Of a stretch of DNA of 64,000 nt, positions 4,045 through 31,027 are shown piece after piece. The position numbers were made by a program, and so were the translations under genes. Origin of the DNA: Erysipelotrichaceae bacterium (GTDB lineage Bacteria; Bacillota_I; Bacilli_A; Erysipelotrichales; Erysipelotrichaceae); the NCBI GenBank assembly GCA_030525525.1, contig JAUNEN010000010.1, forward strand, positions 1 through 64,000. The letters are read 5' to 3'. The notes under the pieces were generated by a model that ran no database searches, was not told the origin of the DNA, and saw only the letters and a program-made list of their open reading frames with translations. Positions within the stretch are counted from its first letter, which is position 1, and each line of letters starts with the position of its first letter.

Positions 4045-4666
4045 TTGTCAGCCTCCGTGTAATATCATCATAAACTTTGAGAGCACGCTCTGCATATTCG
4101 TCCAGCATTACCTTTGCCTTTTCTGTGTATGCGTCCGCATATTCCCTGTCCTTCATCAGTCGTGTGTTGACAATGATATTCATATAGGCGCCATACATCG
4201 CGCCATGCGCCAGCATCACGCTTGTCGCGGCATCCGAAATTGCAAGCTTTGAGCCGATTTCGGCCAGTCTTTCATCAAGCTCGACAATCCGCACACAGTT
4301 TTTCAGAATTTCATAAGGCGGCTCAGCTGCCACACGCAGGCACTGTTCCATGAGCTCTGCATAGCCTTCGGTATCCTTAGGCAGTGAATATGCTTTTGCC
4401 AAAGGCGCAAAGGCTTCGGCATCCTTTTCAATGCAGGCAAGCAGATTCTTTCTTAAATCAAGAGCTTCTTCCCTGAGTGCACATAATTCATCCGTATATT
4501 CCAGAAATTTCTTTTTGCCGATCGTCAGATTGGTCACCATGGCCGCAAGGCTGCCGGCCAGCGATCCGCATAATGCGCTGACTCCCCCGCCCCCGGGTAC
4601 CGGATCTTTCGATGAAGCGGCGAGTGTAAATTCATCCAATGATAATGTTTCAAATTCGCGGGACAT
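4037..4666 (-). CDS. fchA: Cyclodeaminase/methenyl-THF cyclohydrolase family protein
   Basis: 209 residues. The N-terminal signature DPVPGGGGVSALCGSLAGSLAAMVTNLT and the following GKKKF are characteristic of the formiminotetrahydrofolate cyclodeaminase/FchA family. The rest is helical, as expected for this all-alpha fold. Homologues act either on formimino-THF (histidine breakdown) or as methenyl-THF cyclohydrolase in acetogens and methylotrophs. No histidine-utilisation genes are nearby. The 8-bp overlap with folD points to the cyclohydrolase role. An AGGAGG site precedes the ATG. Function is inferred from family and context. Confidence 0.88.
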   Translation of the reverse strand: MSREFETLSLDEFTLAASSKDPVPGGGGVSALCGSLAGSLAAMVTNLTIGKKKFLEYTDELCALREEALDLRKNLLACIEKDAEAFAPLAKAYSLPKDTEGYAELMEQCLRVAAEPPYEILKNCVRIVELDERLAEIGSKLAISDAATSVMLAHGAMYGAYMNIIVNTRLMKDREYADAYTEKAKVMLDEYAERALKVYDDITRRLTNG

Positions 4667-4747
4667 ATCAATTGCCTCCTGTTCACCTTAAGAATACATG
4701 GAAGTGACACAAATTTGAATCTGCAATCTGCAGGGAAATGCGTTTCT

Positions 4748-5761
4748 TTAACCGTCATTCTGTTCAAGCTGCTTTTTTCTTTCGTCAATTGCGGCTTTCA
4801 GCTTGTCTTCATCCATCGGATTGATGCCGAGAATTGCATCCTCCCTGCATTCATATGCATGTGCCCCGTCGATCTGATTGACCTTGCCGCATCTTTTGCA
4901 TGTCCATGTTTCAAGATGATCGTCAAAGCCTTCCTGATCATTGAGCAGATCATCGCATCTGTCGCAATACCAGTAGAAATCCGGAAATTTCGATTCCGTA
5001 TCATCGCCATCATAGACATATTCATACTCTTCCGGGTAATAGAGATAATGCAGTTTTGAAAGAAGTGAATTCTCTTCGCCCGGTGCTCTGTTGACCTCAT
5101 TGAAACCCGAATCAAACCTTCTGGTCATCCGCCCCGCTTCATTCCTTAACAATGATCCGAGCAGCAGCCACAGATACGAATTGATCAGCCCTTCAAACTT
5201 ATAGCGACAGTACTGGTAGGCAGCGTTGTAGATCACATTGTCAAAGATTTCATCATCAAACGGAAACGCTTCCCGATCCCTTTGCGAAGGGGTGAGCTCA
5301 TCCCGTTCAATCGCTTCGGCATTGATGAAATCAATCAGATTATCCGCAAAGGCAACAAAGCCTTCATCGCTGAGTGCGGTCAGATGATTGAGCACGTTGA
5401 GCTGAAGTTTGGCAACCTGTGCATCGCTTTCGGCAAGCGTGCGGACTATTTTCTTCTGGATCAGTACAGCATTCTTTCTCTGCTTTTCACGGTTTCCGTC
5501 AGCTGTTCCGATCAGCCTGCCGGCAAGCTGGGTGATTGTTGTATCCCCGCCTGCATATAAGCGGCCGTTATATCTTGCCGCATGGATCATCAGTTCATTT
5601 TCATCAAACCACGGCGTTATTTTTTTCTTTCCGTCTGTTTCTTCTTCATGGATCAGAAGATCGCCGAACCATTCAGCCAGTAAATCAAGCTGCTTTGGCA
5701 TCGGCTCATCTGCATAGCGGTAATAGAGTTCGCATACATAACCGAATCTGAGTCTGCTCAT
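4748..5761 (-). CDS. Unrecognised protein with C-terminal zinc ribbon
   Basis: 337 residues from the ATG at 5761, chosen because GGGAGGTG lies just upstream; a longer in-frame start at 5821 has no ribosome site. Most of the chain is soluble and helical. Near the C-terminus are two cysteine pairs, WYCDRCDD and WTCKRCGK, spaced like a zinc ribbon, and a further YEC follows. I do not recognise the family. Upstream on the same strand is another hypothetical gene, and downstream is fchA, so these may be cotranscribed. A possible metal-binding regulatory or structural role is a guess. Confidence 0.7.
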   Translation of the reverse strand: MSRLRFGYVCELYYRYADEPMPKQLDLLAEWFGDLLIHEEETDGKKKITPWFDENELMIHAARYNGRLYAGGDTTITQLAGRLIGTADGNREKQRKNAVLIQKKIVRTLAESDAQVAKLQLNVLNHLTALSDEGFVAFADNLIDFINAEAIERDELTPSQRDREAFPFDDEIFDNVIYNAAYQYCRYKFEGLINSYLWLLLGSLLRNEAGRMTRRFDSGFNEVNRAPGEENSLLSKLHYLYYPEEYEYVYDGDDTESKFPDFYWYCDRCDDLLNDQEGFDDHLETWTCKRCGKVNQIDGAHAYECREDAILGINPMDEDKLKAAIDERKKQLEQNDG

Positions 5762-5817
5762 AAAGCACCTCCCTACGCTTCTATCATCACTTTTTTCAGA
5801 ACAAAAAACATGCCACT

Positions 5818-6309
5818 TCAAAAAGGCAGATCGTCCGCTTCCGGAGAATGATGAATCAGAGCGTCCATCTGTTCGGCATACAGTCTGACCTTTTCTTCAT
5901 AGGGAAGCGAAGAATCGATACCGACTTCCTCCCAGGTAACACCAAACGCAAAGCCCCCGTCTGTTTCACCGGCAATATACGAAAACCAATCATCACTTGT
6001 TTCAATGATTGCCTGATACTGACGCTCAAATTCAACTTCTTTTTTCATCTTCTCAAATCTTTTTCCGGCTTCTTCATCATTCTGATCAAACAGAATTCCA
6101 ATTTCTCTGAGATCTTTTTCAGCAGCCTGCAGATCAAGCCTCATATGTTTTCGGTATCTTGAAAGCACATGCGGCTTTGCGAGATTTCCTTCTTCAAACA
6201 GCCACTTGACCGCTTTTTCTCTGCACAGCTGTTTCTTTTCCTGTTTTGTCAGATGCTTTTCTGGTTTCTTTTTCATTGTTTCTGATCCTGCACCTTCATC
6301 ATATGCCAT
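5818..6309 (-). CDS. Hypothetical charged protein
   Basis: 163 residues, rich in Lys and Glu, with a predicted helical middle (RFEKMKKEVEFERQYQ) and an acidic tail (HHSPEADDLPF). There is no signal peptide or membrane segment. The first 60 residues contain a basic stretch (KKKPEKHLTKQEKKQLCREK). I do not recognise the family. The start at 6309 has AGGAAG only four bases away. An ATG twelve codons in (6273), with AGGA nine bases away, is an alternative. It lies 56 bp upstream of the zinc-ribbon gene and probably belongs to the same transcript. Confidence 0.6.
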   Translation of the reverse strand: MAYDEGAGSETMKKKPEKHLTKQEKKQLCREKAVKWLFEEGNLAKPHVLSRYRKHMRLDLQAAEKDLREIGILFDQNDEEAGKRFEKMKKEVEFERQYQAIIETSDDWFSYIAGETDGGFAFGVTWEEVGIDSSLPYEEKVRLYAEQMDALIHHSPEADDLPF

Positions 6310-22325: not shown

Positions 22326-23108
22326 ATGAGAAGAGTGACTGCCGCCCTGCTGCTTGCATGTACATGTGCATGCACATCAGGCGCAATGAAGGAAACTGAT
22401 ATGAATATTACAATCGATACCGGCTACGGCGGTTTCAGAGTGTGTTTTGACATGCCTGAAAACAATGATCACGCAGAGATCGAGTGCGTCAGAGAAAATC
22501 AGAAACCGTTCAAAGAAAGATCTGTCGTCAGTACGGACTATGATGCATATGATCTATACGGTTTATGCGCATATACAGCGGTTGAAAACAACTGGTACGG
22601 AACGATGAAAGTCTCTGTCAGCTGTTTTGATGAAAAAGGAAAACTCATTGCCAAAGATTACAGTGAGCCCTTTGAAGTCACCGATTATTTCTGCGAAGAA
22701 GAAACAAGATCAGTTGAAGGCAGAAAGCCTTACGTCTTCACATATACTTCCGAACAGACTTCCTACATGCAGCGCTATCAGGACGAAGTTGTATCATGCA
22801 CGATCATATTCGATGAAGATGTTTCAATCGATGCCGTCTATTATGACAGGCAGGAAGAGAAAAACGAAATCAGCAGAAATCTCAATGAATCTGAAATTCA
22901 GAAACTCAACGAATTCATAGTGAGCGGACAGCTTGTCAGAAAAGGCATTTCCGATCCTTCCGTCCATATGCTTGACGGTTCAGTTCCGGCTTATTATCAT
23001 CTGACACTGACTGACAGCGATCCGAATGAAGACAGATGGTATCACTTCGAACCTGAAAAAAGCCGCCGGGATGAACTGACGGACTTCCTCAAAGAGCTTT
23101 GCCAATAA
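22326..23108 (+). CDS. Putative lipoprotein, unknown function
   Basis: 260 residues. A short hydrophobic N-terminus (MRRVTAALLLACTCACTSG) with several cysteines suggests a lipoprotein signal, with modification at Cys12 or Cys16. The rest is acidic and predicted beta-rich, and I recognise no family. The final block (YYHLTLTDSDPNEDRWYHFEPEKS) hints at a compact C-terminal domain. It is divergent from the EIIB-ROK gene. No strong ribosome site is visible, so the start is uncertain. Confidence 0.6.
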   Translation: MRRVTAALLLACTCACTSGAMKETDMNITIDTGYGGFRVCFDMPENNDHAEIECVRENQKPFKERSVVSTDYDAYDLYGLCAYTAVENNWYGTMKVSVSCFDEKGKLIAKDYSEPFEVTDYFCEEETRSVEGRKPYVFTYTSEQTSYMQRYQDEVVSCTIIFDEDVSIDAVYYDRQEEKNEISRNLNESEIQKLNEFIVSGQLVRKGISDPSVHMLDGSVPAYYHLTLTDSDPNEDRWYHFEPEKSRRDELTDFLKELCQ

Positions 23109-23120
23109 GCTCTTTTTTTT
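23092..23120 (+). terminator. Rho-independent terminator
   Basis: AAGAGCTT / AAGCTCTT stem followed by TTTTTT. The stop codon of the lipoprotein gene lies inside the hairpin loop. Confidence 0.75.
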
Positions 23121-23775
23121 AAATTTTCCTTCCTGAACCGATTTCGAAATGATATTTCACAATGCCGAGATCCGTCGAAGAATACGGACCCCTGAGTGCC
23201 TTTACGCTGACTTTTCCGTCATCATATTCAAATCTGAATTTCTGCTGATTCATGGCAGTCGGCGCAAGACTTGCCGCCCGTACACCATCCATGAACCATT
23301 GCGGCTCTGCCGTAATGGCTGTGTAAAGATCTCCGAGGGGTTTGCTTTTGTGGGCATATCCCTGATTTTCGCCATAGCCGACTGCAATCACCATCACCAG
23401 CTTTTCATTCTTTCCGACTTCAAAAACGCCCGGCACCTTTCTGAATGTCAGAGCTACCCAGCATGTATTTAGGCCAAGCTGTTGGGCAAAAAGGACAATC
23501 CTCTCGCCATAATAACCGCATTTTTCATAAAGATCTTCACTCTTTTTCCCGACTAAGGCGATGTAGTTTCTGACCCCTGTGAACCTTCCGTATTTTGCCA
23601 ATGCGCCGGAGAATGCTTTCGGCTCTTCCGTTACCAGCTGAATATGAAGATCCGCCTCTTTATTGATTTCTTCGATCAGTTTCGTAAGCCCGGCAAGAGT
23701 TTCCCCTTCAATTTTCCGGTCGGTATAAGAGCGGACAGAATGTCTTTGTTCAATTGCTTCTTTCAATGTCATCAT
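23119..23775 (-). CDS. Nitroreductase family protein
   Basis: 218 residues. The N-terminal RHSVRSYTDRKI is the FMN-binding start of the nitroreductase fold. The central WVALTF and GYGENQGYAHKSKPLGD match short clostridial-type nitroreductases, and APTAMNQQKFRFE carries the APSxxNxQ-like block near the C-terminus. The order of blocks, with APT...NQQ late in the chain, matches the permuted/short nitroreductase group often called TM-nitroreductase-like. It would be an FMN flavoprotein using NAD(P)H. The substrate is unknown. GGGGAG precedes the start. Confidence 0.85.
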   Translation of the reverse strand: MMTLKEAIEQRHSVRSYTDRKIEGETLAGLTKLIEEINKEADLHIQLVTEEPKAFSGALAKYGRFTGVRNYIALVGKKSEDLYEKCGYYGERIVLFAQQLGLNTCWVALTFRKVPGVFEVGKNEKLVMVIAVGYGENQGYAHKSKPLGDLYTAITAEPQWFMDGVRAASLAPTAMNQQKFRFEYDDGKVSVKALRGPYSSTDLGIVKYHFEIGSGRKI

Positions 23776-23842
23776 ACAAGTTACTCCCCGGCTTCAGTAT
23801 ACGTGAAACGCCCGCTTTTTTGTGATGCAAAACACAGAAAAG

Positions 23843-23863
23843 ACAGACGGATGATACCCGTCT
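23843..23863 (-). terminator. Rho-independent terminator
   Basis: A CAGACGG / CCGTCTG stem followed by TCTTTTC on the minus strand, after the PepSY-like gene. Confidence 0.7.
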
Positions 23864-23872
23864 GCCCTGCTT

Positions 23873-24343
23873 TCAGTTTTGTTTTGTATATTTCAGTTCA
23901 TATTCAAGGAATGTTCCGTCAGTCCCGTTCAGTTCTGCTTCACCTGTGTACTCGTCACTCCGGAATCTGACTTTGTAATAACTGCCCTCTTTACGGGATC
24001 TCTTCTTTGTGATTCTGATTTTTTCAGGACTGTTGAATTGTTTCTTGAGAATGCTTCTGATCTCTGCTTCTTTGAGTACGAAATCTTTTGAAACAATTCT
24101 GTCAAATGCTTCATATTCAGTTTTCAGAAGCTTTCCGTTTTCATCAAGAGTCACTTCGAATTCTGCATCTTCACTCAGAAATTCAATTTCCCATTTTCCG
24201 TCTTCCTGTTCAGCTTCTTTATATTCAAAGCCTACAGGCACATATTGTTCAGCTTTCTGAACCGCTTCTTCTTCATCCAGTGCATTCACATTGATGACAT
24301 TTGCGCCTATCAGCAATGAACAGATCAGTACATGTCTTTTCAT
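23873..24343 (-). CDS. Secreted PepSY-like protein
   Basis: 156 residues from the ATG at 24343, which lies eight bases after a perfect AAGGAGG. A longer frame would put that site inside its own coding region. A signal peptide (MKRHVLICSLLIGANVINVNA) ends near residue 21. The remainder looks like two PepSY-type repeats: helix, then strands with WEIEFLSEDAEFEVTLDENGKLL and YYKVRFRSDEYTGEAELNGTDGTFL. PepSY domains often inhibit proteases or bind wall components. The role here is not known. Confidence 0.75.
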   Translation of the reverse strand: MKRHVLICSLLIGANVINVNALDEEEAVQKAEQYVPVGFEYKEAEQEDGKWEIEFLSEDAEFEVTLDENGKLLKTEYEAFDRIVSKDFVLKEAEIRSILKKQFNSPEKIRITKKRSRKEGSYYKVRFRSDEYTGEAELNGTDGTFLEYELKYTKQN

Positions 24344-24402
24344 GATCATGTCCTCCTTCATTAACGAAATGCATCAGGCTGCTGTTTTATTGCATTAAAA
24401 AA

Positions 24403-24424
24403 GAAGAAATCATGTGATTTCTTC
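24403..24424 (-). terminator. Rho-independent terminator
   Basis: A GAAGAAATCA / TGATTTCTTC stem with a TTTTTT tail on the minus strand. Confidence 0.8.
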
Positions 24425-24428
24425 AGGA

Positions 24429-24722
24429 TTATTTCTTCTTGCCGCTGATTCCTTTTGAATAACCAAGCAAAAGACCTGCCGCAATTGCGATGATGAAGTA
24501 CGGCGCAATCGTGAGGATTCTCTTTGCGATGGAAGGCTTTTCTGCTTCTTCAGTTTCTGCTTCATAGATGACAGTCTTCAGAGCATCTGTATTTTCATTG
24601 AGCACAAGAACCGTTCTTTCTGCAAGGTTCTCTGCAGGTGACTCTGCATATACATGCACCGGCATCATCAGTGCGATGACCAGTACAATCGCGGCTGTCA
24701 ATAATTTCATGTATCTTTTCAT
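24429..24722 (-). CDS. Small secreted/anchored protein
   Basis: 97 residues from the ATG at 24722 (AAGGGA upstream). A signal peptide (LLTAAIVLVIALMMPVHVYA) precedes ~35 acidic residues. A C-terminal membrane helix (IAPYFIIAIAAGLLLGY) with a SGKKK tail follows. The layout resembles a small surface protein kept at the membrane. I do not recognise a family and see no LPxTG motif. Confidence 0.65.
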   Translation of the reverse strand: MKRYMKLLTAAIVLVIALMMPVHVYAESPAENLAERTVLVLNENTDALKTVIYEAETEEAEKPSIAKRILTIAPYFIIAIAAGLLLGYSKGISGKKK

Positions 24723-24896
24723 AGTCTGTTCCCTTATCTCAGTGCTTTCAGCAAGCACCCTTATTATAGCGGAAAGTGAAGCTGTTTTGCATGCAAATGA
24801 GACAATGCACAAAAACCGCTCTTTTGATGAATATTAATCCGAAAAGAATACTCCCGCGTCTGATTCTGTTTTACAATGAAGTCGGAGACAGATATT

Positions 24897-25220
24897 ATGA
24901 GCGAAAAAAACAATAAAAAGGATATTGAATCCATGAGCGATCATGAACTGCTTGCAGAACTGTTGCGTGTCAGCAAAAGAAAACAGACAGCTGCCACATT
25001 GCTCAGCCTTCTGGCAGTCGTTGTTTCAGTTTCGGTTCTCATCGCAATGGTTGTTCTGATTCCAAGATTCATGGCATCGATGGAACAGATCACACTGCTT
25101 GCCGAACAGGGCAGTGCATCTCTTGAAGACCTCAACAAAATTGATTTCGATACACTGAATCAGGGAATCCAGGATTTCTCTTCGATCGCTGCGAAACTCG
25201 CCAAATGGTTCGGTAAATGA
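24897..25220 (+). CDS. Small single-pass membrane protein
   Basis: 107 residues from the ATG at 24897 (CGGAG upstream). A charged N-terminus (SEKNNKKDIESMSDHELLAELLRVSKRKQ) leads into one membrane helix (AATLLSLLAVVVSVSVLIAMVVLI), and an amphipathic helical tail follows. The pattern resembles small bacterial membrane proteins related to methyl-accepting or divisome-type adaptors, but I cannot assign a family. It is monocistronic with a terminator. Confidence 0.6.
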   Translation: MSEKNNKKDIESMSDHELLAELLRVSKRKQTAATLLSLLAVVVSVSVLIAMVVLIPRFMASMEQITLLAEQGSASLEDLNKIDFDTLNQGIQDFSSIAAKLAKWFGK

Positions 25221-25223
25221 AAA

Positions 25224-25247
25224 CAAGGCATACCGCCTTGCTTTTTC
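25224..25247 (+). terminator. Rho-independent terminator
   Basis: A CAAGGC / GCCTTG hairpin followed by TTTTTC, directly after the small membrane protein gene. Confidence 0.75.
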
Positions 25248-26133
25248 ATTTATAGTCAAATCCGCTCGGTTCATTCAGAGGCTGATCGAGAATTTCCGGA
25301 TGTTCGAAAATATGACGGATCAGCTTGAGGCTTCTTGCAAAATAGAAACCGTCCGCAATTCTTTCATCAAGGGTTGCACCGATATCGACGCAATCCCTGA
25401 TTTCCTTATGTCCGTCCGGCATCAAAATCTCTTCCTTGTGGAGTGTTCCGATCGTGATCATGATCGAGCAGGTACCGTAGTTGTTGAGATGATGGTAGAC
25501 TGCCGGGCATTTGATGGAACCGAGATTCGAAACAAGAATCGTCGAATAGTTCGGATCGCCTGCAGTAATGAAGTCGGGATTCTTTCCCCAGAAATCCAGA
25601 TAGCGGATTAAACGCACACTTCCCGCCAGCAGGGGACGGGGCAATGCCGCAAATTTATCAAGCAGCTCATCGACGCCGCCGGTTGCGTGTTCGCTTTTTC
25701 TCGCTTCTGCAACATCGCCGACAATCTTCGCAGAAATCTCATTGACAGTATCGGTTTCCTTGGGCACCAAGAACATCAGTGTTTCTTCGGCACCGTCCGC
25801 AAATCTGCGCTTGGCGACAAAAGACAGTGAAATCTCATTGCGTTCATAAATCCGGTATCCCTGGATGAAGCGGTTCATCAAGGGTCTTTCATAAACCATT
25901 CTGGCAAGTGCGGCGATGAAGCAATGGAAGATCGTCATCTTTCCTTCTTCCCTGCCTTCATTCTTTTTGGCAAGATATTCAACCAGTGCGGTCGCATCGA
26001 TTGTATCGTTGAGATAAACTTCGGCTTCAGTCCTTTTCGGCATTAATGCCGTCATGACTGTCTGCAGTCCCGGAGCGCTGACTTTCTTTCCGTCTTTTCT
26101 GTCGCCCCATTTTACCTTAGTCGCGTTTTTCAT
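25246..26133 (-). CDS. Lipoyl-less 2-oxoacid dehydrogenase E2-like acyltransferase
   Basis: 295 residues that match only the catalytic (CAT-like) domain of 2-oxoacid dehydrogenase E2 subunits. The middle carries VSNLGSIKC, and the end carries the block that normally reads DHRVVDG. Here it reads DERIADG, with Glu257 in place of the catalytic histidine. No lipoyl or E1/E3-binding domain is present, and no dehydrogenase subunits are nearby. The fold is therefore clear, but normal acyl transfer to lipoamide is doubtful. It may be a divergent acyltransferase or a non-catalytic relative. GAGGAG precedes the ATG. Confidence 0.8.
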   Translation of the reverse strand: MKNATKVKWGDRKDGKKVSAPGLQTVMTALMPKRTEAEVYLNDTIDATALVEYLAKKNEGREEGKMTIFHCFIAALARMVYERPLMNRFIQGYRIYERNEISLSFVAKRRFADGAEETLMFLVPKETDTVNEISAKIVGDVAEARKSEHATGGVDELLDKFAALPRPLLAGSVRLIRYLDFWGKNPDFITAGDPNYSTILVSNLGSIKCPAVYHHLNNYGTCSIMITIGTLHKEEILMPDGHKEIRDCVDIGATLDERIADGFYFARSLKLIRHIFEHPEILDQPLNEPSGFDYK

Positions 26134-26198
26134 GGATTCTCCTCAGATTCAAACAGCCCAACTGTTCATGTTTCATTCTTTACATCAGCAGTTCTTTT

Positions 26199-26315
26199 TT
26201 AGACTGCCTGTGTCATTATAACATCACATATGAAAAAAACTGCATACGGATATGACCATATGCAGCTGATGATAACCGGCGTATATGCCGCACGGATGCG
26301 GTCATATACACTCAT
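26199..26315 (-). CDS. Candidate 38-residue hydrophobic small protein / structured leader
   Basis: A perfect AAGGAGG lies five bases before an ATG at 26315, with a second ATG directly before it. It opens a 38-codon frame, MSVYDRIRAAYTPVIISC..., with a hydrophobic middle. Its coding sequence contains two strong inverted repeats (GTATATG...ATATAC and CTGCATA...TATGCAG). The 325-bp gap 26134-26458 otherwise shows nothing I recognise. It could be a small membrane protein or a regulatory leader for the E2-like gene downstream. Confidence 0.45.
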   Translation of the reverse strand: MSVYDRIRAAYTPVIISCIWSYPYAVFFICDVIMTQAV

Positions 26316-26458
26316 CATTGCCTCCTTCCAAAAGAGAAAAATCGCCGGATGGCTAAGACATCCTTTCTGATTTATTTTCAATGATGAACAAACAGTACGG
26401 GAAATGCACCCGTCTTTCGTTAACTTGATTATGCGTCATGCAAAAAGCAAAATCAAGA

Positions 26459-27796
26459 TCACACATTCAGTCTTGTAACGGAGTCTTCGCTGATGGCATC
26501 GGTTGTGCCGTCTTCCGAAATCACGATTGCGATCAGCTTCTGACCGAGAGCATTTCTCCGCTTGATATAGTTCAGAGATGAATTGAACCTTGCCCCGCGG
26601 GCAACACTTCCTTTGGCGGCGTCTCCGTCAAGAATTGCGCCGATGCAGCAGCAGCTGCATTTTGTATCGACAAGCAGCGCTCCGTCGATTGAGACAAAGG
26701 ACGGCAGAATGTCACGGTGATGATCCAGTGACAGCGGATCGATACCGATTCCTACCCTCGCCTCGGTCAGACGTTCTGTTTCATCCATGATATCTTTCGT
26801 TTTGCCGAAAATCAGAATCGTTCCGAATTTCTGACGGGAAGCTTCAATGATCAGTGATGCAATCCGTGAAATTTCAACCGGTGAAATCTTCGGATCGATC
26901 TCCCTGATCAGATCTGATATATCAATGTCAGGTTTATGATCGCTCACCATGTGATAGCGTGCATTGTAATAGGACAGCTTATGCATTCCTTCATATGCGA
27001 TCCGCCATGAGAGGTGCCCTCTGATTTTGATTTCGCATTCATTGGGGAATACATGCTTGTCACTTAGGCCGCGTATTTTTCCGTTTTCATCCACAACCAG
27101 CGCCAGCTTTTCATTGGAAAGCTCAAGAAGCTTTCTGATCTGCCTGTGATTCTCAGAAGCAAACAGAATCGGTTCATTGAAGGCAACAGACAGCCCCTGC
27201 TTTGCGCTGCGTCTGGTGGAGCGGCTGGAAACTTTGGGAATAATGATACGGCAGTCGGCATAATGCTTTTCATAGGTTTCTGCCGACAGATTCATTAAGA
27301 AGTTGATATCGAGCTTGTAGAAGCCATAGAAGAATTCGACCACGCCTCCCGATATGATCAGATCGTACATATGCGAGATATTCACCCTTCTGATTCCGTA
27401 GAAATACATCTGCTTATAGACTTCTTCATAGAAGGCACGGGTGATGAACTGAAGCGGCGTAATCCCGCTGCCGCAGTAATCAAAAATCACAAAGACATTG
27501 TCCTGATACCAGGTATAGGAGTTTTCAAAATTCGGAATTTCAGTGACATCAGTGATTGTCATTTCACTCACTTCACGGCTTCTGCGGCTGATTGTGGCAA
27601 TCTGATAGCCCTCTGAAAGGCCGCTCTCCTCATCGCGGGGAGTGAGTGAAAAATGAATGCGGAAGTCTGGTATTTCCCGCGGGTTGTCATAGAGATGTTT
27701 CAGAAGTGAATAATAAAGCTCGCGGATTCTCAGGAATGTATCTTCAATACTTCCGGAATCATTTTGGGCAAGCTCACGCCAATAGCTGCTTTCCAT
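26459..27796 (-). CDS. Diadenylate cyclase (DisA_N)-domain-like protein
   Basis: 445 residues from an ATG with GAGGAAAG upstream. The last ~80 residues carry a DisA_N/DAC-type signature: SIDGALLVD (the DGA motif), a glycine-rich GAILDGDAAKGSVARGARFNSSL, and IAIVISEDGTTD. In c-di-AMP synthases the second motif is RHR within GTRHR. Here the matching place reads RGARFN, so activity or product may differ. The first ~350 residues form a large N-terminal region that I do not recognise in detail. It recalls the DACN-type sensor domains found fused to such cyclases. No membrane helix is visible, so a cytoplasmic nucleotide-signalling role is likely but unproven. Confidence 0.75.
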   Translation of the reverse strand: MESSYWRELAQNDSGSIEDTFLRIRELYYSLLKHLYDNPREIPDFRIHFSLTPRDEESGLSEGYQIATISRRSREVSEMTITDVTEIPNFENSYTWYQDNVFVIFDYCGSGITPLQFITRAFYEEVYKQMYFYGIRRVNISHMYDLIISGGVVEFFYGFYKLDINFLMNLSAETYEKHYADCRIIIPKVSSRSTRRSAKQGLSVAFNEPILFASENHRQIRKLLELSNEKLALVVDENGKIRGLSDKHVFPNECEIKIRGHLSWRIAYEGMHKLSYYNARYHMVSDHKPDIDISDLIREIDPKISPVEISRIASLIIEASRQKFGTILIFGKTKDIMDETERLTEARVGIGIDPLSLDHHRDILPSFVSIDGALLVDTKCSCCCIGAILDGDAAKGSVARGARFNSSLNYIKRRNALGQKLIAIVISEDGTTDAISEDSVTRLNV

Positions 27797-27847
27797 ATTG
27801 CTCTTTCCTCACATATCCATTATATGCAAAAACATGCGTTTTGAAAA

Positions 27848-27877
27848 AGCGCACCTCCCGTAACGGAAAGTGCGTTT
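27848..27877 (-). terminator. Rho-independent terminator
   Basis: An ACGCAC...CCG / CGG...GTGCG hairpin with a CTTTTTC tail on the minus strand, after the DAHP synthase gene. Confidence 0.75.
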
Positions 27878-27888
27878 CATCATTTCTT

Positions 27889-28929
27889 TCACATTTCAAC
27901 AAGATCAGCCAGTTCATAAACCAGCTTTTCCGTCTTCTCCCAGCCCAGGCACGGATCCGTGATCGACTGTCCGTAGCAGCTGCCGCCGGGCTGCTGTGAT
28001 CCGTCAACCAGATAGCTTTCAATCATCAGTCCCTTGACAAGTCTGTTGACTTCGCCTGAAACATGGCAGCTGTGCATGATGTCCTTGGCGATGCGGATCT
28101 GCTCATTGAATTTCTTACCGGAATTCGCATGGTTGCAGTCAACGATGACACCGGGATTGGCAAGATCTGTCGCTGCATATGCATCGATCAGATGCCTTAA
28201 ATCTTCATAATGGTAATTCGGATGGGAAATGCCGAATTTATCAACATAACCTCTTAAGATTGCATGAGCGAACGGATTGCCGCTTGTTTCAACTTCCCAG
28301 CCTCTGTAAACAAACTTCTGTACAGACTGGGCAGCGATCATCGCATTCATCATGACGGAAATATCTCCGCCGGTCGGGTTCTTCATTCCAACCGGCGCAT
28401 TGATGCCGCTGGCAACCATGCGGTGCTGCTGATCTTCAACGCTTCTTGCACCGACTGCGACATATCCGAGCAGATCGGAAAGATAGGCATAGTTTTCCGG
28501 ATAGAGCATTTCATCCGCACTTGTAAAGCCTGACTGCTTCACAACATTGGTATGCAGCTGACGGATGGCAATGATGCCGGCAAGCATGTTTTCATCCTTC
28601 CTTGCATCGGGCTGGTGCAGCATTCCCTTGTAACCCGTTCCCTTTGTACGGGGTTTGTTGGTATAGACACGGGGAATCACATAAATACGGTCAGCTACCT
28701 TTTCCTGCAGCTTTGCAAGGCGTGAAATGTATTCGAGGACTGCATCCTCACGGTCGGCGGAACACGGGCCGATGACAAGAATCAGTCTGCCGTCCTCTCC
28801 GGAAAGGATCTTCTGAACTTCCTCATCCCGTCTCTTTTTGATCTGCTTTGTTTCCTCATCAATCGGAAACATCTCTTTCATACCTTCGGGAGTGGGGAGT
28901 TCATCGATCTGCTTCATTAAGATTTCCAT
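27889..28929 (-). CDS. 3-deoxy-7-phosphoheptulonate (DAHP) synthase
   Basis: 346 residues from the ATG at 28929 with AAGGA upstream. It is a class-I AroF/G/H-type enzyme: IGPCSADRE near residue 72, PRVYTNKPRTKGTGYKG (PEP/E4P site), GARSVEDQQHRMVASGI and VDCNHANSGK all match. It condenses PEP with erythrose 4-phosphate at the entry to aromatic amino acid synthesis. Residues equivalent to the feedback-inhibition N-terminus are present. The gene stands alone. A striking nested dyad in its leader (28939-28977) may control translation. Confidence 0.93.
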   Translation of the reverse strand: MEILMKQIDELPTPEGMKEMFPIDEETKQIKKRRDEEVQKILSGEDGRLILVIGPCSADREDAVLEYISRLAKLQEKVADRIYVIPRVYTNKPRTKGTGYKGMLHQPDARKDENMLAGIIAIRQLHTNVVKQSGFTSADEMLYPENYAYLSDLLGYVAVGARSVEDQQHRMVASGINAPVGMKNPTGGDISVMMNAMIAAQSVQKFVYRGWEVETSGNPFAHAILRGYVDKFGISHPNYHYEDLRHLIDAYAATDLANPGVIVDCNHANSGKKFNEQIRIAKDIMHSCHVSGEVNRLVKGLMIESYLVDGSQQPGGSCYGQSITDPCLGWEKTEKLVYELADLVEM

Positions 28930-28938
28930 TTTGAATCC

Positions 28939-28977
28939 TTCTTTCTGAAAAGTAACGTTACTCTCTTTCAGAAAGAA
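28939..28977 (-). promoter_or_regulatory. Nested dyad in the DAHP synthase leader
   Basis: A 12-bp inverted repeat (TTCTTTCTGAAA / TTTCAGAAAGAA) flanks a second perfect palindrome, AGTAACGTTACT. The stem ends at the Shine-Dalgarno of the gene, so it could sequester it. It could also be an operator. Confidence 0.55.
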
Positions 28978-28989
28978 TTTCAAGGGTTT

Positions 28990-30042
28990 TCATTCATGCA
29001 TGAAGAGATAATCTTTGACAAAGTCCCTGACAAGATCAGCCGGAACGATAAATGACAGATTTTCATCCTGAACCGATACTGCCGAAGCGATTCCTGCCAC
29101 TTCGCCATACTGATTGAGTACCGGTGAACCTGAAATTCCTTCTTTCAGTGCCATCTGCACCGGCATATAGGAAACTCCTTTCTCAAAATGAATCACACCG
29201 CCGAGCGAAGTTCCGCTTAACACAGTCAGCTTCTGATCGCCCGGATAGCCAACCGCATAGAGCACATCATCCTTTAAGGGATTGACTTCGGAAATCTTCA
29301 GAACTGCATTTGTTGAAGTATTGATCTTCAGCAGAGCAATATCTTCCTGTTCGGATACAGCGATCACTTCTGCTTCATATCTGTTTTCGCGATACATCAC
29401 ATAATAGCTGACCGCCGCATGATCAACGACATGGGCGTTGGTCACAATATATCCGTCTTCATCAATCACAAAGCCGCACCCGCGCCATGCATCTTCATTC
29501 ATGGAGCTTAGGGAATAAACCCTGACAACCGACTTCCTGACGTGCTCGCTGATTTCTTCTTTCTCGATGATCTTTTCTTCTTCATGATTCATCGTAAATG
29601 AAACAGCCCGCCATAAAAGAACAGCTGCCAGCAGCGCACAGATCACAAAACAGATGATTCCGAAAATCTTTGAGCCTTTTGTTTCTTTCTGCTCTTTGCG
29701 GAAGATATCACTCTGCCTTTCGGCAATCATCTTTCTTAATGTTTCAAAGCTGACAGTATTTGCGTCAATCACGCCGGTATGACTTTTGAGTTCAGGATTT
29801 TCTGATGCATGGATCAGAACAACCGGAATATCCCGGCTCAGTGCCGTATTCAGAAATGAAGAGATTTCTTCATCGCCGCTTATTTTTTCATCTGCCATGC
29901 ATAACACGGCGTCCGCTCTTAAAAGAAGCTGTTCCGTTTTTGCTTTTGCAAAAACAAAGCCTTCTTTTTCAAATATGTTCTGATAGAAGCGAAAATCAGC
30001 TTCATCTTCCTTCAGATATAAGGGAAATAAAATTTTTCTCAT
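28990..30042 (-). CDS. Membrane trypsin-like (S1C) protease with TIR-like N-terminus
   Basis: 350 residues. Residues 1-~115 form an alpha/beta domain (ILFPLYLKEDEADFRFY..., ADAVLCMADEKISGDEEISSFL, IPVVLIH) that resembles a TIR or TIR-like fold. Residues 126-146 form one membrane helix (IFGIICFVICALLAAVLLWRA). A trypsin-like domain follows with the full triad: H204 in TNAHVV, D234 in EDIALLKI and S306 in GISGSPVLN. By topology the N-terminal domain is cytoplasmic and the protease is outside. There is no PDZ domain. It resembles HtrA-type sensors in layout, but with a signalling-type domain instead. The start has no strong ribosome site. Confidence 0.8.
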   Translation of the reverse strand: MRKILFPLYLKEDEADFRFYQNIFEKEGFVFAKAKTEQLLLRADAVLCMADEKISGDEEISSFLNTALSRDIPVVLIHASENPELKSHTGVIDANTVSFETLRKMIAERQSDIFRKEQKETKGSKIFGIICFVICALLAAVLLWRAVSFTMNHEEEKIIEKEEISEHVRKSVVRVYSLSSMNEDAWRGCGFVIDEDGYIVTNAHVVDHAAVSYYVMYRENRYEAEVIAVSEQEDIALLKINTSTNAVLKISEVNPLKDDVLYAVGYPGDQKLTVLSGTSLGGVIHFEKGVSYMPVQMALKEGISGSPVLNQYGEVAGIASAVSVQDENLSFIVPADLVRDFVKDYLFMHE

Positions 30043-30129
30043 GCGTCTATCTTACCACAGACGCTTTGATGTATCCCTTTACGCTTCAGTGTGCTAAAAT
30101 CTTAAACATAAAAAAATGAGGACAATCAT

Positions 30130-30924
30130 ATGACTTCCAAGAAACACAGGATCGTGATCAAAGTCGGCACATCCACCCTGACAAACGAAAACGGAAACTC
30201 AAATCTCAGAAGAATCGAGCTTCTTTCCAGAGTGCTCAGCGACATCCAGAATATGGGCAATGAAGTAATACTCGTATCCTCCGGCGCCATCGCTGTGGGA
30301 GCCAACAAGCTTCACCTTCCCGGCAAGCCGAAAGAAATGCGCATGAAGCAGGCAGCGGCCGCTGTCGGTCAGTGTGAAAACATGTTTTTATATGACAAGT
30401 TCTTCGGAGAATACGGCAAGACGGTTGCCCAGATTCTTCTCAATGCCGAAGACATCCGCCAGGAAGTCAAAAAGGAGAATCTCGCCAATACGTTCGAATC
30501 GCTTCTTGAACTGGGCGTCATTCCGATCGTCAATGAAAATGACTCGGTCAGCTACACCGAAATCGAATCGGAAGAAAAGCTGTTCGGCGACAACGACATG
30601 CTGTCGGCGGTTGTTGCCATTCTCTGCAGAGCGGACAGACTCGTGATTCTTTCCGACATCGACGGCTTCTATGACCGCGATCCAAGACTCTACAAGAATG
30701 CAAACCTGATCAGACAGATTGATGAAATCACCGATGAAACCTATGAGCTTGCCGGCGGAGCGGGCAGCCGCAGAGGCACCGGCGGTATGCGCACAAAGCT
30801 GCAGGCGGCAGACCTTGCCACAGCCCAGCATATCGACACATGGGTGCTCAACGGTTCCGATCCTGTCATCTTATACAAGCTGATGGATGGCGAACCGGTG
30901 GGAACACTGTTCAAGGCAAAGTAA
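30130..30924 (+). CDS. proB: Glutamate 5-kinase (short form)
   Basis: 264 residues. The kinase core is complete: VIKVGTSTLTNENG, LVSSGAIAVG, PIVNENDSV, FGDNDMLSA, DIDGFYDRDPRL and GTGGMRTKLQAA. The C-terminal PUA domain of the usual ~367-residue enzyme is absent, as in other short ProB forms. It phosphorylates glutamate in the first step of proline synthesis. No proA lies beside it. TGAGGA precedes the ATG, and a terminator follows. It is cytoplasmic and probably monocistronic. Confidence 0.93.
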   Translation: MTSKKHRIVIKVGTSTLTNENGNSNLRRIELLSRVLSDIQNMGNEVILVSSGAIAVGANKLHLPGKPKEMRMKQAAAAVGQCENMFLYDKFFGEYGKTVAQILLNAEDIRQEVKKENLANTFESLLELGVIPIVNENDSVSYTEIESEEKLFGDNDMLSAVVAILCRADRLVILSDIDGFYDRDPRLYKNANLIRQIDEITDETYELAGGAGSRRGTGGMRTKLQAADLATAQHIDTWVLNGSDPVILYKLMDGEPVGTLFKAK

Positions 30925-30930
30925 ATTCAG

Positions 30931-30955
30931 GGAAGCTGAAATCAGCTTCCTTTTT
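30931..30955 (+). terminator. Rho-independent terminator
   Basis: A perfect GGAAGCTGA / TCAGCTTCC hairpin followed by TTTTT. Confidence 0.88.
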
Positions 30956-30980
30956 CAATTCCCGTTCATGTTCAGATCCA

Positions 30981-31027
30981 CAAAAAAGAGCTGTTGCTCT
31001 TCATAAAATTCAGAAGAAAAACAGCTC
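30981..31027 (-). terminator. Rho-independent terminator
   Basis: A GAGCTGTT / AACAGCTC stem with a TTTTTT tail on the minus strand, after the acidic repeat protein gene. Confidence 0.65.

Follow-up and report, generated by a model that had tools for sequence, protein, structure and literature searches.

Proteins with a DAC domain tend to be called "diadenylate cyclase" on the basis of similarity, and an entire branch of them, the DACNH branch, has changed two of the three residues of a motif that is needed in the tested enzymes. A protein of this branch is encoded in the 64,000-nucleotide stretch of Erysipelotrichaceae DNA that was analyzed here (the window), which raises the question of whether it still synthesizes a cyclic nucleotide or has become a receptor. 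The branch includes a gene required for phage defense (DS-2). If it is true that the branch makes a different second messenger, c-di-AMP annotation changes, and so does the wiring of CBASS systems that contain a DAC; if it makes no messenger, receptors have been annotated as enzymes. The Erysipelotrichaceae family offers a simple, single-gene and CBASS-free case for deciding between enzyme and receptor.

The reading frame proposed in the initial annotation was recovered exactly, with 445 aa on the minus strand, and is flanked by putative transcription signals.

26459..27796, minus strand: gene of the DACNH-DAC protein, 445 aa from ATG (open reading frame and purifying selection)
27850..27874, minus strand: terminator-like stem-loop that follows the upstream DAHP synthase gene (11 pairs, 7 GC, T-tail)
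27819..27847, minus strand: promoter-like site ahead of the gene, TTTTCA-17-TATAAT (10 of 12 matches)
26238..26267, minus strand: terminator-like stem-loop downstream of the gene (12 pairs)

The gene is under purifying selection, with a dN/dS of 0.10-0.16 against four orthologs. Its neighbors encode a DAHP synthase, an acyltransferase-like protein, and a trypsin-like protease, and its start lies 92 bases past the stop of the DAHP synthase gene, which runs in the same direction. An operon of the two was rejected because a terminator-like stem sits between them, which is not proof. The scan was based on consensus only; promoter-like sites were no commoner than in shuffled sequences, and nine terminator-like stem-loops were found in the scanned region versus 1.3 expected. 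No Rfam family matched at 23000-31000 of the window, and no tRNA was found in its 64 kb. The gene reads as a single-gene unit, and its earlier description as isolated stands.

The protein is composed of three parts.

27302..27796, minus strand: N-terminal region, residues 1-165 (no Pfam match, not DACNG, low-confidence model)
27050..27298, minus strand: DACNH "probable sensor domain" (PF21750), residues 167-249 (Pfam E 4.4e-8, 33.4 bits)
26462..26899, minus strand: DAC fold, residues 300-445 (VIA-align and Pfam DAC)

The AlphaFold model, built from eight sequences, is good in the DAC part only and fair in DACNH. The C-terminal DAC fold is confirmed, and with it the proposed kinship to DisA_N proteins. 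Residues 300-445 superimpose best, among the solved DACs, on DacM (7dg0_A; VIA-align Z 13.6, rmsd 2.6 Å, 131 aligned residues), and every one of the 50 Foldseek matches listed at E <= 0.001 is a DAC of the CdaA/DacA/DisA/CdaM type. At the sequence level, neither phmmer nor a profile search matched any PDB sequence. Pfam DAC matches residues 318-430 with an E of 8.2e-5 and 22.6 bits, under the cut-off of 27 bits that applies to DAC and DACNH alike, which speaks against a cyclase. DACNH exceeds its curated cut-off and is followed by the DAC match, the architecture of the DACNH-DAC branch. No Pfam match was obtained for the C-terminal/HhH domain of DisA or the membrane domain of CdaA.

The N-terminus had been called unrecognized, which is correct for residues 1-165, whereas residues 167-249 are now assigned to DACNH. 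DACNG was rejected as the N-terminal domain (no Pfam match, hhalign probability 0.2 percent), and no trustworthy AlphaFold model of residues 1-165 was obtained (pLDDT 42 for residues 1-171 modeled alone). This region is nevertheless conserved at 74-80% in four orthologs and at 46-52% in the four sequences of the paralog group that were compared.

The active site was examined by setting the DAC domain of 32 DACNH-type proteins against that of 30 classical DACs, the latter being the loci opened among 37 matches.

26678..26686, minus strand: Asp371-Gly372-Ala373 (DGA; Asp and Gly fixed in 32/32 DACNH-DACs and 30/30 classical DACs)
26645..26659, minus strand: Cys380-x-Cys382-x-Cys384 (19/32 sequences, which are all 19 of the genus family)
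26624..26632, minus strand: Leu389-Asp390-Gly391, a DACNH-branch motif (Asp390 and Gly391 in 32/32)
26582..26599, minus strand: Arg400-Gly-Ala-Arg403-Phe404-Asn405 (RGARFN) in place of x-G-x-R-H-R (Arg400, Gly401, Arg403, and Asn405 in 32/32)
26510..26518, minus strand: Ser427-Glu428-Asp429, counterpart of the classical SEE (Ser 31/32, Glu 28/32, Asp 3)

The DACNH set is drawn from the window genus (19, window protein included), plasmids (seven), viral contigs (four), another family of the class (one), and E. coli DS-2 (one); 19 of the 32 sequences thus come from a single genus, and the Citrobacter and E. coli ones are close relatives. From the genus, two of 21 sequences were dropped as identical, and the fragment L023 fell below the limit. 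L004, which carries an N run inside the gene, was kept in the motif count and left out of the tree; its odd values near 410 and 427-430 probably stem from that run. As the four viral sequences were found with patterns that contain the motif, the independent count is 28, not 32.

The DGA is kept (residues 371-373), and positions 403-405, where classical DACs have RHR, read RFN also after joint alignment with them, both as first noticed. RHR is present in all 30 classical DACs and R-[YFL]-N in all 32 DACNH-DACs (28/28 without the four pattern-found ones). Tyr takes the position of the histidine in 16 sequences, Phe in 15, and Leu in one, the second arginine is Asn in 32/32, and the alanine that follows the motif in classical DACs is Ser in 31/32. 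The set I[LC]DG plus RG-x-R-[YFL]-N occurs in 32/32, the window protein included. Classical DACs carry Tyr, Leu, Met, Thr, or Phe at the Arg400 position, mostly Lys, Pro, Ile, or Thr at Asp390, and Ile, Pro, or Leu at Gly391; position 429 changes from Glu in classical DACs to Asp in the branch. Gly325, Asp371, Gly372, Gly401, and Arg403 are fixed in both sets (32/32 and 30/30), and Ser427 is found in 31/32 and 30/30, respectively. In the tree, 31 DACNH-type rows separate from eight classical rows, with poorly supported deep branching. Judged by these alignments, RFN is a signature of the whole DACNH-type branch and not peculiar to the window gene. No description of the R-x-N change was found in a full-text literature search, which did not cover Galperin 2023, the work cited for DAC architectures in PMC13092281. 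Searches for the domain names DACNH, DACNV, DACND, and DACNG gave no relevant paper, and “DS2-3” gave none.

The three cysteines lie on the strand after the DGA and could form a metal or thiol site beside the active site. None of the 13 relatives outside the genus has the complete cluster; Cys382 alone is present in 31/32 DACNH-DACs.

An ordinary c-di-AMP synthase of the DisA or CdaA type, in which a sequencing or alignment slip obscures the RHR, would agree with the DGA and the fold. It is extremely improbable, as R-[YFL]-N recurs in 32/32 relatives, all matches in the genus are open frames without stops, and the protein lacks the DisA C-terminal and CdaA membrane domains in a genome that has a separate CdaA. 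The slip is refuted as to the RHR; c-di-AMP could still be the product. A decayed classical DAC was likewise rejected on the fixation of R-[YFL]-N (32/32) and the dN/dS of 0.10-0.16. The branch-wide fixation of Arg400, Asp390, Gly391, and Asn405 argues for a kept, altered function rather than decay.

The motif also bears on catalysis. Changing RHR to AAA is reported to abolish the activity of M. tuberculosis DacA (PMC3328451) and of M. bovis CdaM (PMC13022847), and DGA and RHR are described as required for ligand binding (PMC8573169). Loss of the histidine and the second arginine could therefore mean that catalysis is lost, although the substitutions tested there replaced all three residues, including the first arginine that the window protein keeps. 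The DAC could then be a noncatalytic receptor whose ligand is a nucleotide or a cyclic dinucleotide, for example the c-di-AMP that the cell's CdaA makes, and whose signal passes through the N-terminal domains. Besides the replacement of two residues that tested classical enzymes need together with the first arginine, the receptor is favored by the presence of a classical CdaA with RHR in the same genome and by the DGA itself, which reads DGG in two orthologs (L002 and L003/L010, IDGG for IDGA). The last point is weakened by 3/30 classical DACs that have LHDGG and an intact RHR. Furthermore, Asp371, Arg403, and Ser427 are fixed, though for binding alone the catalytic aspartate could be dispensed with, and DS-2 reportedly needs its predicted catalytic residues (PMC13092281), though binding could explain that too. 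We consider a receptor unlikely.

The genomic setting of the family bears on its role. Within the taxonomic family, relatives occur in 13 of 244 genomes, all in one of 59 genera; in the window genus, 24 of 70 genomes hold one, and all of these matches are open frames without stops. The named relatives of the window protein are Erysipelotrichaceae. Several genomes, including the window's, carry two copies, the window type and a paralog at 47-48 percent identity. The paralog of the window's genome (G000:C154:6485-7801; L007, L036) lies between an rpiR-type regulator and ftsH, a place common to three other species. When 22 neighborhoods were clustered, the window orthologs fell into one conserved place, with a trypsin-like protease in seven, a proB-type gene in seven, and an acyltransferase-like gene in eight; these conserved neighbors all come from the window's ortholog group, in which some species were fetched twice, the gene calls are longest-ORF guesses, and proB was named by eye from sequence. 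The paralog group fell beside ftsH and an rpiR-type regulator, and a third group adjoins a phosphoribosyltransferase gene. A single ordinary DAC, CdaA-like with GARHRAA, is found in the window's genome. A mobile gene of a defense island was rejected, as the loci are stable, syntenic, and of housekeeping type.

Outside the genus, some DACNH-DACs stand beside CBASS genes. Six of 13 such loci adjoin them, the neighbors of the other seven having been partly scanned (those of L041 and L051 were left out of the PADLOC scan). The Gluconobacter and Citrobacter proteins adjoin a phospholipase and a CD-NTase, the viral L054 a CD-NTase and a Cap15-type 2TM effector, and the Priestia L032 an SMODS CD-NTase and a 4TM effector; E. 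coli and G389 complete the six. The proportion agrees with the 15/30 reported in PMC13092281. In G389 (L052 6682-8664, contig 37), a gene whose product has the Cap15 domain of cyclic-dinucleotide receptors (Pfam E 1.2e-15) lies 15 bases upstream of the DACNH-DAC and forms a two-gene unit with it, so that the CBASS neighbor is the effector only. No CD-NTase was seen among the scanned part of the ORFs on the 9.2-kb contig, nor an SMODS match at E <= 0.1 in the genome; as the contig extends for just 525 bases upstream of the receptor gene and genome completeness is 94 percent, the absence is not proven. The G389 DAC may be the signal source for its Cap15 receptor, and this pair, from a distant relative, hints that the branch can itself make the signal.

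Three further loci were noted. In the IMG/VR contig L055 (3003-6977), the DACNH-DAC (4428-6236) lies between portal-like and prohead-protease-like ORFs, named by eye, and resembles a prophage cargo gene. In an E. coli chromosome, DS-2 is followed immediately by another CBASS, which has DncV (L057 1069-7746). A Priestia plasmid DACNH-DAC (L031 5852-8979) adjoins genes annotated as DNA cytosine methyltransferase, NgoFVII-type restriction enzyme, and very short patch repair.

The best-described relative is the DAC of DS-2, a DefensePredictor anti-phage system that consists of a phospholipase, a CD-NTase, and a DAC, the last being the third gene and represented by NCBIfam NF053872. The E. coli protein reads IDGT and RGSRYNSG and is annotated as the third protein beside an anti-phage phospholipase and a nucleotidyltransferase. 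The Citrobacter protein is a true NF053872 member (803.8 bits against a cut-off of 630) with the motif RYN, and the DACNG N-terminal domain is present in the two members above the cut-off that were tested. According to PMC13092281, defense was lost when two residues of the DS-2 DAC that are predicted to be catalytic were mutated. Taken with the RYN of this DAC, this means that a DAC with the rewritten motif is functionally needed somewhere, be it as enzyme or binder.

NF053872 matches residues 166-435 of the window protein (E 3.5e-35, 121.4 bits against the cut-off of 630), which by its score is a relative and not a member. The window protein could accordingly be an anti-phage protein, a stand-alone or scattered DS-2 relative that acts together with a CD-NTase or effector from another locus; its similarity to NF053872 and the six CBASS-adjacent loci of 13 (Gluconobacter, Citrobacter, E. 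coli, L054, L032, and G389) point in this direction. We regard this as quite improbable, since 121 of 630 bits is far under the cut-off, PADLOC found no CBASS gene beside the window gene or in six further contexts of the genus, and the stable syntenic housekeeping loci are unlike those of a mobile defense gene. Nor was an SMODS CD-NTase found in four genomes of the genus, the window's among them (E <= 0.1, controls working). PADLOC did not match the window protein itself; among its neighbors, only the trypsin-like protease was matched, in each case to protease-containing models of other systems. In wider searches, Pfam DACNH matched two of 395 genomes of the class, and NF053872 matched the window's own genome alone among 392. 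Searches with NF053871 and PF18153, and with Pfam DACNV in 392 genomes, gave no match, with controls that were silent too. The window protein had no match in the phage collection; the viral scans gave none with pattern A1 and four loci with pattern A2.

Taken together, the reading that we favor, and hold to be reasonably likely, is that the window protein is a nucleotide cyclase with a DAC fold, a member of the DACNH branch that is controlled by a sensor, has a re-specified active site, and is predicted to synthesize a cyclic dinucleotide. The observations behind it are the DAC fold, the DACNH domain, the branch motif set, purifying selection, a single-gene housekeeping locus, and a separate CdaA. 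Two DAC domains would face each other, with Asp371 holding the metal/3′-OH function and Arg403, Ser427, and Glu428 keeping the classical nucleotide contacts; the roles of Asp371, Ser427, and Glu428 are assumed from the classical enzymes. Arg400 might partly replace the positive charge lost at His404/Arg405. From two NTPs the protein would form a cyclic dinucleotide, which may be c-di-AMP or a different one, and the N-terminal region and DACNH would sense a cue and switch the cyclase on. The DAC relative of this gut-type bacterium probably makes a cyclic-nucleotide signal beside the ordinary c-di-AMP enzyme, and its role in the window genus is probably cellular signaling, no longer in a CBASS operon.

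A bolder and doubtful extension is that the R-[YFL]-N DACs form a distinct synthase class, with a product other than c-di-AMP or a different control. Such a DAC would stand in for a CD-NTase to serve a Cap15-type receptor in G389, and would have been tamed in one Erysipelotrichaceae genus as a chromosomal, possibly thiol- or metal-sensing (CxCxC) enzyme beside CdaA.

The branch of the window gene is known, though biochemically unproven; new here are the genus family's own N-terminal region, the CxCxC cluster, the CBASS-free housekeeping place, and the residue-by-residue switch table. With CdaA/DacA, DisA, and CdaM (PF02457), the protein shares the DAC fold and the Asp-Gly, Gly-x-Arg, and Ser-Glu positions. 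It differs from them by RFN for RHR, the added Arg400 and Asp390-Gly391, and Ser for Ala past the motif, and no transmembrane or HhH domain was matched in it. It falls into one branch with the proteins of Priestia plasmids (L029, L031, and L032) and Dyadobacter (L030), which differ by their own N-terminal regions and, in L032, by the adjoining SMODS CD-NTase and 4TM effector; L031 is the best plasmid match (E 6e-20 over residues 217-438), and RFN is found in L029 and L031. Unlike the DS-2 DAC, the window protein has no DACNG and no adjacent CBASS partners and carries the CxCxC cluster; like it, it takes on the order DACNH-then-DAC and the set IDG...ILDG...RG.R.N...S[ED]D.
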